Shown in pieces: positions 45,602 to 56,249 of a stretch of DNA of 64,000 nt. Each line of letters opens with the position of its first letter. The first letter of the stretch is position 1. The position numbers were made by a program, and so were the translations under genes. Under the pieces are notes generated by a model. That model ran no database searches. It saw only the letters and a list, made by a program, of their open reading frames with translations, and was not told the origin of the DNA. The stretch comes from Thermococcus sp. M39 (lineage in GTDB: Archaea > Methanobacteriota_B > Thermococci > Thermococcales > Thermococcaceae): contig NZ_SNUG01000003.1 of assembly GCF_012027325.1 (NCBI RefSeq), forward strand, positions 1 through 64,000, given 5' to 3'.

Positions 45602-45702
45602 AGAGTTATAAGGATTATTCGATCCTCTATTCGACATTAAGAGAGCAAAACACTCATTTGATCAAACTTTCTTAAAGTTTGATGGGGAAAAGGTTTAAAT
45701 AT
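45602..45702. promoter_or_regulatory. Divergent promoters around a 23-base palindrome
   Basis: 45661-45683 is a perfect inverted repeat, ATCAAACTTT-ctt-AAAGTTTGAT (10-3-10). On the plus strand it is followed by TATA box GGTTTAAATATG (about 45691-45702) of the ACT regulator. On the minus strand CCTTATAACT near 45605-45614 serves the EamA gene. The palindrome is placed upstream of the TATA box, where an activator or an autoregulator would bind. Confidence 0.65.
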
Positions 45703-45738
45703 GCATTTCTACACATTTGTGAGTAAGAGGTGGCAAAA

Positions 45739-46332
45739 ATGATGCTCATATTAGAAGCTTACTTTAAGAATTATCCGGCAAGAAAAAAAGTTGCGGAGTT
45801 TTTATTTGAGAACGGGTTGAGTGTTAAGAACGGGAAGATATATCTAAGAAACGTAGAGGTTCCAATCAGTGAATTATCAAGGGTTATTGGAGTAAACAGA
45901 AAGATAATCTATCATACCATCGAATACATTGAGAAAACTTATCCGCTGAAGCTAATCTTCGAGCGATTAACTCCTCTGCCAAGCCTAATTGATGTTGCTC
46001 CAATAATGGGCTGGGAAGTTCTTGAAATTGAATTTGAAAAAGACCTCTACTCTCAAGCAATTTCAAGCATTCTCCAGATTCTCTCAAAAAACAATGTTCC
46101 GATAATGGAAATCTTCAGCAGGAACTTGAGAGATGAAGACAGCAAAGCATACATAGTTATAGACGGAACTCTGCCAGTTGATGTATTTGTAAAAATCAAA
46201 GACATACCCGGATTCAAAAAGCTCATCCTCCACACGCCAGAGAAGAGGAAAGAAAACTTTGTGTGTGCCTATTGTGAAGTGCGATATTGCCCAAAGAAAG
46301 TGATGTTGGAAAAAACTGGTGCAAAATCTTAG
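45739..46332 (+). CDS. Predicted amino acid-responsive regulator (HTH + ACT, COG2150-like)
   Basis: A 197-residue protein: N-terminal helix-turn-helix ([29 protein letters not shown], residues about 35-65), central ACT-like domain ([27 protein letters not shown]...), and a C-terminal cysteine motif CAYCEVRYC, maybe a metal site. Start at ATG 45739 with GAGGTGG before it. Fits COG2150, regulators of amino acid metabolism with an ACT domain. Probably binds the palindrome just upstream. Ends sharing TTAG with the acylphosphatase stop. Confidence 0.8.
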
Positions 46333-53906: not shown

Positions 53907-55244
53907 ATGGTGAAGAGACCAGTTGTTAAAGAGCTTCCTGGGCCGAAAGCAAGAGAAGTTATTGAGAGGAACTTTGACCTTTTAGCAGTTACAACCCAAG
54001 ACCCAGATGCCTTGCCAATTGTTATCGAGAGAGGAGAAGGGATAATGGTTTACGACGTTGATGGCAACGCTTTCTATGACTTTGGAAGCGGTGTTGGTGT
54101 TCTTAACGTTGGACATGCCCACCCAAGAGTTGTCGAAGCTATAAAGAGACAAGCTGAGAAGTTCACTCACTTCGCATTAAACGACTTCTTCTATGAGAAC
54201 GCTGTAATCCTGGCTCAAAAGCTTGCTGAGCTTTCTCCAGGAGAGTTTCCAAAGAAAGTAGTTTACCAAAACAGCGGTGCTGAAGCTAATGAAGCCATGA
54301 TGAAGCTCGTCAAGTACGGAACAGGAAGAAAGAGATTCATTGCATTCTACCATGCATTCCACGGAAGAACACAGGCTGTTCTTAGCTTAACAGCAAGCAA
54401 GTGGGTTCAACAGGAGAGATTCTTCCCAACAATGCCTGGCGTTGAGCACGTTCCATATCCAAACCCATACAGAAACCCATGGCACATTGACGGTTATGCC
54501 GATCCAAAGGAGCTCGTGAACAGAGTCATTGAGTTCATTGAGGAGTACGTCTTCAGGCATGTTCCACCAGAGGAAGTTGGAGCAATTGTCTTTGAACCAA
54601 TACAAGGTGAAGGTGGATACATCGTTCCACCAAAAGAGTTCTTCAAGGAGCTCAAGAAACTTGCAGACAAGTACGGAATTCTTTTAGCGGATGACGAAGT
54701 TCAGATGGGCGTTGGAAGAACTGGAAAGTTCTGGGCAATTGAGCACTTTGGCATAGCACCAGACACAATTCAGTTCGGTAAAGCCATTGGTGGAGGAATT
54801 CCATTAGCTGGTGTCGTGCACAGAGCTGACATAGCTTTTGACAAGCCAGGAAGACATGCATCAACATTCGGTGGAAATCCAGTAGCAATCGCTGCTGCAC
54901 TTGAAGTCGTTGAAATTGTCAAAGAGTTATTACCTCACGTCCAAGAGGTTGGTGATTACCTCCACAAGAGACTTAAGGAGTTTGAGGAGAAATACGAAGT
55001 TATCGGCGATGCAAGAGGTCTCGGCTTAGCTCAAGCAGTAGAATTCGTCAAGAACAAGGACACAAAGGAGAAGAACCCAGAGGTTAGGAATAAGGTTGTC
55101 AAGGAAGCTGCAAAGAGAGGACTAATCCTCCTCGGCTGTGGCGACAATTCACTGAGATTCATCCCACCGCTGATCGTCACTAAGGAAGAGATTGATGTCG
55201 CCATGGAAATCTTTGAAGAGGCTCTTAAAGCCGCTCTTAAGTGA
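53907..55244 (+). CDS. Class III aminotransferase, probable ornithine aminotransferase
   Basis: PLP enzyme of 445 residues. The PLP-binding lysine is in [16 protein letters not shown] (about residue 291), with [15 protein letters not shown] before it and the [15 protein letters not shown]-terminal motif. The beginning ([19 protein letters not shown]) resembles the thermococcal ornithine aminotransferase rather than the broad-specificity amino acid racemase, but these families are close, so the substrate is provisional. GGTGAGCTAAA before the ATG. Monocistronic by the gap on both sides. Confidence 0.85.
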
Positions 55245-55309
55245 GTTCCCCTTCTTTTTAAGTTTTCTTAAGTTTTCGAATTTTGCACTGCCATCTTTTT
55301 TGCAAAAAG

Positions 55310-55344
55310 CTTTTAAGCATCGATTTCAAGTTTTAACTTGAAAT
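55310..55344 (+). promoter_or_regulatory. Promoter and 22-base palindromic operator of ECF gene
   Basis: TATA box CTTTTAAGC (55310-55318), then a perfect inverted repeat ATTTCAAGTT-tt-AACTTGAAAT (10-2-10) at 55323-55344, covering the expected transcription start and ending 25 bases before the ATG. This is the place for a repressor. The binding protein is unknown; a vitamin- or metabolite-sensing repressor would suit an uptake gene. Confidence 0.65.
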
Positions 55345-55368
55345 TTGTGTAAAGAGGAGGTGCGAAAT

Positions 55369-55971
55369 ATGGAGTTCGAAGCAATTGGGGCATATGCAAA
55401 ACCTATACTAGCGCTTGCTGTTTTAATCTATATTGTGTACATTTTTGTCATTAAAAAAGAGGAGTTCAAAAAATCCCAAGTTGTGGCAATCTCAGCTGTT
55501 ATGACAGCTTTAGTAACAGTTGCGACAATTGTGATTCAAGTCCCAACACCACCAACAAGAGGTTATATCAACCTTGGAGATACAATGGTCATGCTGAGCG
55601 GTGTGCTGTTTGGACCGCTGGTTGGAGCATTCGCTGGAGGTTTTGGTTCAGCTTTGGCAGATGCAATCACTGGCTATGCCCACTGGGCACCTTTTACATT
55701 GATAATCAAAGGTCTTGAAGGATTAGCCGTCGGATATATAGCTTACAAGAGAGAAGACTTCACAGGGATACTCATAGGAACAATAGTCGGTGGATTCATC
55801 ATGGTCTTTGGATACTTCCTTGTTGAGGTGTTCTTCTATGGCTATCCGAGTGCTATAGTTGAAGTCCCAGGAAATACTCTTCAAGCAGTCAGCGGAATAA
55901 TAGTCGGAGGAGGATTGGGGTATATAATAAAGAAAAGGTACTCAGACATAGTAAGTCTCATACAAACCTAA
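55369..55971 (+). CDS. ECF transporter substrate-binding (S) component
   Basis: Membrane protein of 200 residues with about six helices, of the ECF S-component type: INLGDTMVMLSGVLFGPLVGAFAGGFGSALADAITGY is the characteristic long motif (helices 2-3). S components capture vitamins such as biotin, thiamin, riboflavin or pyridoxine, and work with a shared ATPase/T module encoded elsewhere. Start at ATG 55369, six bases after GGAGGTG. Specificity cannot be read from sequence. Confidence 0.85.
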   Translation: MEFEAIGAYAKPILALAVLIYIVYIFVIKKEEFKKSQVVAISAVMTALVTVATIVIQVPTPPTRGYINLGDTMVMLSGVLFGPLVGAFAGGFGSALADAITGYAHWAPFTLIIKGLEGLAVGYIAYKREDFTGILIGTIVGGFIMVFGYFLVEVFFYGYPSAIVEVPGNTLQAVSGIIVGGGLGYIIKKRYSDIVSLIQT

Positions 55972-56249
55972 ACTCTCTGTATCTCCTCCCATACTTCCTT
56001 TTCTTTGAAGAGAAGCTCTATTGATATTCTTCTTGAGGCCCTCTTAAGCTGTCCCAAGTATTGGGAGTCTGCAATCACGGCATCAGAGTTAAGCTCCTTT
56101 ATCTCATAAACAGCAAGTCCGCAGTTCTGAAGTATATCTGCCGCATACTTAAGAAATTCTGGTCCAGCGAGTATTATATCCGGATTTAGGCCTTCCTCTT
56201 TGAGCTCTTCGATAGCAGCTTTTAGGAGATCATAGAGCTCTTCCTTCAC
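55968..56249 (-). CDS. Family 4 (A-domain) encapsulin-like protein, DUF1884
   Basis: A 93-residue protein that I match to DUF1884 of Pyrococcus/Thermococcus, the truncated HK97-fold (A-domain) proteins classed as Family 4 encapsulins. Visible pattern: N-terminal helix ([20 protein letters not shown]), [50 protein letters not shown]. It starts with GTG whose last bases are the DeoC stop (GTGA), so the two are translationally coupled. Family 4 genes have been reported beside DeoC as presumed cargo. Recognition is from memory of the family; a fold search would settle it. Confidence 0.75.

Follow-up and report, generated by a model that had tools for sequence, protein, structure and literature searches.

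A conserved palindrome in the promoters of an ECF transporter S component and of pdxST probably marks a vitamin B6 regulon in Thermococcaceae

What is the role of a perfect palindrome that lies in the promoter of an archaeal vitamin transporter gene, and which vitamin does it concern? The question is raised by a window of 64,000 nucleotides (the whole stretch of DNA analysed) from Thermococcus sp. M39, in which positions 55323-55344 read directly as a 22-base perfect palindrome, ATTTCAAGTT-TT-AACTTGAAAT. A sequence-only reading had described it as exact over 10 + 10 bases, covering the expected transcription start of an ECF vitamin transporter gene. Sequence and coordinates agree with that description, and the gene product indeed matches PF07155 (1.9e-39). 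The locus comprises the following features:

53907-55244, plus strand: class III aminotransferase (PLP-type family), encoded next to and upstream of the ECF S-component gene (ECF-S), given as context with no regulon membership implied
55302-55317, plus strand: BRE-like GCAAAAAG and TATA-like CTTTTAAG of the ECF-S promoter, inferred from the archaeal promoter consensus; the TATA-like element alone occupies 55310-55317
55323-55344, no strand assigned: palindrome with left arm ATTTCAAGTT (55323-55332), spacer TT (55333-55334) and right arm AACTTGAAAT (55335-55344)
55354-55362, plus strand: Shine-Dalgarno-like GAGGAGGTG, read from the sequence
55369-55971, plus strand: S component of an ECF transporter (PF07155; 200 aa), probably the PdxU/HmpT-like subunit of a vitamin B6 importer

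The palindrome lies 5 bp past the TATA-like box and 24 bp ahead of the ECF-S ATG at 55369. Archaeal transcription starts about 26-27 bp after the centre of the TATA box, and on this geometry the start should fall near 55340, which is inside the palindrome as had been claimed. Tail to tail with ECF-S, on the minus strand at 55968-56249, is a gene for a family 4B encapsulin shell protein adjoining a deoC-like gene, an arrangement repeated in several related genomes.

Within the window, the 20-bp core at up to three mismatches matched once against 0.14 expected, and perfect 10 + 10 palindromes with spacers of 0-4 occurred twice against a mean of 0.43 in 30 first-order Markov simulations. Taken alone, the palindrome is weak evidence, not beyond chance; what makes it more than chance is its recurrence at functionally related promoters. 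The second perfect 10 + 10 palindrome of the window, ATCAAACTTTCTTAAAGTTTGAT at 45661-45683, sits immediately before the TATA-like box of a gene (45730-46332) for a 200-aa protein that by eye looks like an HTH plus ACT-type regulator, and possibly serves the autoregulation of that gene. Its arms had no match in 405 loci.

Copies of the operator elsewhere in the genome had been expected to reveal the pathway and hence the substrate. We searched the organism's own genome for TTTCAAGTT-n2-AACTTGAAA with mismatches allowed. At two mismatches or fewer, only two places matched, ECF-S itself with none and pdxS-pdxT with one. All remaining matches carried three mismatches and were about as frequent as in the reversed control (9 forward, 11 control). 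The one-mismatch site (C7:50960-50979) follows directly on the TATA-like element of pdxS-pdxT, which encodes the DXP-independent pyridoxal-5'-phosphate synthase. A second copy therefore exists, in the pdxST promoter, and this copy together with the family-wide pairing described below points to vitamin B6: the operator is common to ECF-S and pdxST, and its positions are those of a B6 regulon whose targets are pdxST and a PdxU-type transporter.

Recurrence at pdxS also bears on a quite different account, under which the palindrome would terminate transcription of the upstream gene or fold as an RNA hairpin. Its place between two co-directional genes would suit such a role, but we consider this extremely improbable: at pdxS the upstream neighbours are others, the palindrome adjoins the TATA box and lies mostly ahead of the expected start, and no run of T follows it.

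Across Thermococcaceae, 53 of 94 genomes carry the site at two mismatches or fewer, and the table summed over all 94 gives 90 forward matches against 27 for the reversed control. The 75 forward sites listed divide into 37 within 120 bp upstream of ECF-S, 21 likewise upstream of pdxS and 17 in other places, so that the two gene types together account for 58; among the matches listed, every perfect site (7/7) and every one-mismatch site (16/16) precedes ECF-S (23/23). When the promoters of 60 of the 88 ECF-S matches and 60 of the 74 pdxS matches were read, a site of at least 14/18 was present within 90 bp in 43/60 and 36/60, respectively. For background, we took 1501 regions upstream of open reading frames in genome G035, five of which reach 14/18, one of the five being pdxS itself. 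These regions stand in place of the reversed-sequence control for ECF-S promoters (27/60), which is invalid because the palindrome, even when reversed, still matches itself once the register is shifted. By genus group, the site was present in the ECF-S promoters of g1 (7/7), g2 (3/3), g3 (0/7), g4 (20/30), g5 (12/12) and g6 (1/1), and in the pdxS promoters of g1 (2/2), g2 (1/1), g3 (6/8), g4 (22/43), g5 (4/5) and g6 (1/1).

A scan of all stretches of G035 ranked ECF-S first and pdxS second, the latter with a score of 17.3 that is barely above the best reversed-sequence control (17.0). Apart from these two, no site in G035 reached the control maximum. A collection of 84,980 species contained 38 stretches with an exact match (L116-L153), and all seven from Thermococci are upstream of ECF-S. 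Ten of the 38 fall in Flavobacterium contigs and are probably an unrelated palindrome.

Two-mismatch sites in other places, downstream of glyA, inside genes and before an MBL-fold-like gene, were read and are held to be unproven. The match before the MBL-fold-like gene is conserved in three g5 genomes (L096:4879-4898, L097:4862-4881 and L098:4886-4905) and may mark either a further regulon member or the site of another factor. One genome has a second pdxS fragment, about 32 codons long and with a separate copy of the operator (G016:C18:70230-70368); it seems to be a promoter-region duplicate that is broken.

The architecture of the operator differs between its targets. ECF-S promoters carry a single site past or overlapping the TATA-like box; at pdxS, a pair of sites spaced by 23-24 bp, or about two helical turns, occurs in 25 of the 60 promoters. 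A site of at least 15/18 was also present in five of the 13 ecfA-ecfT promoters examined (G093, G002, G039, G013 and G031); the organism's own ecfA-ecfT promoter has no site of 15/18 (best 12/18). This extension is weaker because at these promoters the TATA box itself makes up part of the left half. The ecfA-ecfT module probably serves other S components, for example BioY, and its sites, like the conserved match before the MBL-fold-like gene, would fit a broader regulator for which the B6 genes are only some of several targets. We regard such breadth as unlikely, given just two sites at two mismatches or fewer in the organism's own genome and the lack of any further G035 site at the control maximum.

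Our own grouping of the genomes distinguishes three states of the operator. The first has the classic operator. Genomes of the second lack ECF-S (for example G019, G020 and G033) and have, in the corresponding position ahead of pdxS, a palindrome altered to TTTCAAATC-n3-ATCTGAAG. The third, a subgroup of g4 (for example G018, G022, G024, G028, G044 and G058), has both genes and the site at neither.

The organism's own EcfT is encoded at G000:C3:276340-277095, with EcfA just upstream. Among 57 family genomes, related to one another and one of them incomplete, EcfT was found at 2.3e-20 or better in 48 of the 49 with ECF-S, the exception being the 82% complete G083, and in none of the eight without it; of these, G010, G019, G020, G021 and G033 had no match and G030, G042 and G073 only matches at 1e-11 to 1e-13. 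All good genomes without ECF-S keep pdxS, and all good genomes without pdxS keep ECF-S. This complementarity is not significant, with none of 74 good genomes lacking both (p=0.34; p=0.51 for all 94), when ECF-S is scored absent at a best E above 1e-17 (nine weak matches dropped) and one weak pdxS match (G084) is dropped.

Which substrate does the S component carry? The protein scores 135.9 bits against PF07155 (gathering score 26.7), a family whose Pfam name is riboflavin S component. It falls below the cut-off of the RibU riboflavin equivalog model NF010182 (30.6 bits against 99). By profile, its nearest solved structure is HmpT/PdxU2 (4HZU chain S), at E 6.9e-33 against 1.4e-4 for RibU, and single-sequence comparison again placed HmpT/PdxU2 closest among solved S components. 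An AlphaFold2 model (pLDDT 88.3) matched the same structure with a Foldseek value of 1.3e-6 and a TM score of 0.80 on the target. HmpT, formerly believed to carry HMP, was assigned to pyridoxamine by mass spectrometry and simulation, according to the accessible part of PMC4860826, which names six pocket residues: E41, H84, Q87, Y149, N169 and Q172. In our alignment, Y149, N169 and Q172 are identical (3/6), and Trp76 is conserved as well. Unlike HmpT/PdxU2, the Thermococcus protein is archaeal, has an extra N-terminal helix and carries D71, K114 and E117 in place of E41, H84 and Q87. With three of the six pocket residues different, the alignment does not fix the exact B6 vitamer. The S component most likely imports one of the B6 vitamers. 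According to the accessible part of PMC9997740, Archaea have only the DXP-independent B6 route, and few B6 transporters are characterised.

The name of PF07155 leaves room for riboflavin as the substrate and for the riboflavin regulator RbkR (HTH + DUF120), which is present in G035, as the protein that binds the site. A distant ECF-S homologue from another family (L298:5162-5656) lies, by eye, directly upstream of riboflavin-type genes, and substrates may therefore differ within the wider family. For the Thermococcus protein we find this account very unlikely. Besides the low equivalog score and the far closer kinship to HmpT than to RibU, pdxST has no riboflavin role, the rib genes of the one genome inspected (the ribA/ribH region of G035) lack the site, and an RbkR orthologue persists in G028, where the operator is missing.

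Equally doubtful is the proposal that the site is one for ThiR, the regulator of thiamine genes, and that the S component imports HMP or thiamine. ThiR (HTH + ThiN) is present in G035, pdxST adjoins thi4-thiC in several genomes, and the older assignment of HmpT was to HMP. Yet thiC and thi4 carried no site in the G035 scan, and three thiC/thi4 regions that were read have, instead of the palindrome operator, a different element, about AAAACTnAGTTTT. Nor does thiC track ECF-S (p=0.71), and it is kept in five of 11 good genomes without pdxS and absent from three of ten good genomes without ECF-S. The absence of the palindrome from their own target genes thus speaks against both RbkR and ThiR. The AAAACTnAGTTTT element itself, at L005:4060-4120, near 4370-4410 in L115 and near 16930-17000 in L242, is a candidate ThiR operator.

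If a dedicated B6 regulator binds the palindrome, its gene might be sought beside the targets. Our own winged-helix profiles detected no regulator near ECF-S or pdxS in 120 short loci; their hits in the longer stretches were, in G088, an Lrp-type gene at a distance of about 5 kb and, next to distant ECF homologues, genes of the DtxR type (G109 and G110). We also assumed a loss model, under which the regulator should be missing where the operator is missing, as in the state-three genome G028. A PH0730-like DUF4443 protein, present in 74/74 good genomes including those without the operator, is unsupported under this model. All eight Lrp-type proteins of G035 have reciprocal best hits in G028, as do its SurR-like, RbkR, GfcR-like and several ArsR-type proteins. 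Three proteins have no G028 match and, by eye, an unsuitable context: a DeoR-type beside a PTS operon, a TrmB-type beside a sugar ABC transporter and a double-HTH protein beside a nucleotidyltransferase. The comparison, from which RHH and most XRE types were left out, did not find the factor absent from G028.

In conclusion, the palindrome probably serves as operator in a small Thermococcaceae regulon for vitamin B6 that joins import to synthesis under a putative repressor. The conserved common site, the genes that it precedes and its position are observed; from them we infer the regulator protein, repression, PLP as its ligand and the transported vitamer. A putative dimeric transcription factor would bind TTTCAAGTT-n2-AACTTGAAA between the TATA box and the start of ECF-S and pdxST, where two dimers would often cooperate at pdxS; the same factor would bind at the ecfA-ecfT module of some species. 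With B6, probably PLP, in plentiful supply it would block initiation, and when B6 is short it would leave, switching on both synthesis and import of a B6 vitamer by the S component. Repression by blocked initiation is suggested by the site's place between TATA box and start, and PLP is the simplest guess for the co-repressor, since both branches end in it. With only moderate confidence we go further and propose that a dedicated, non-MocR B6-sensing repressor controls both the synthesis and the import of B6, along with the ECF energising module of some species; that in the lineage without the ECF transporter the pdxS operator drifted to TTTCAAATC-n3-ATCTGAAG, suggesting a changed specificity of the regulator; and that another subgroup lost the control.

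The proposed regulon would suggest what an orphan vitamin transporter of Archaea, named for riboflavin in Pfam, probably carries. It predicts a vitamin B6 regulon in Archaea as well as which species depend on B6 uptake, and its 20-bp site is a defined bait with which the missing regulator could be captured.

Among known systems, the closest in content are the bacterial PdxR (MocR-type) regulons, in which a single regulator likewise governs PLP synthase and a PdxU-type importer; the accessible part of PMC5320631 lists pdxST, pdxK and pdxU among their members and states that MocR factors are absent from Archaea. In contrast to PdxR regulons, the Thermococcaceae operator consists of one inverted repeat of 20 bp placed between TATA box and start, and whereas PdxR combines a GntR HTH with an aminotransferase domain, the putative archaeal regulator would not be of the MocR type. 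As a lineage-wide vitamin regulon of Thermococcales, the system resembles those of RbkR (riboflavin) and ThiR (thiamine), regulators that have enzyme-like sensor domains and whose G035 target genes lack the palindrome operator. The regulons predicted for P. furiosus in the accessible part of PMC10746257 include RbkR, ThiR and CblrR and no B6 regulon, and a literature search confined to open-licence papers found no report of an archaeal one. The content of the regulon is thus familiar from Bacteria, and the archaeal operator with its missing regulator appears to be new as far as our searches show.
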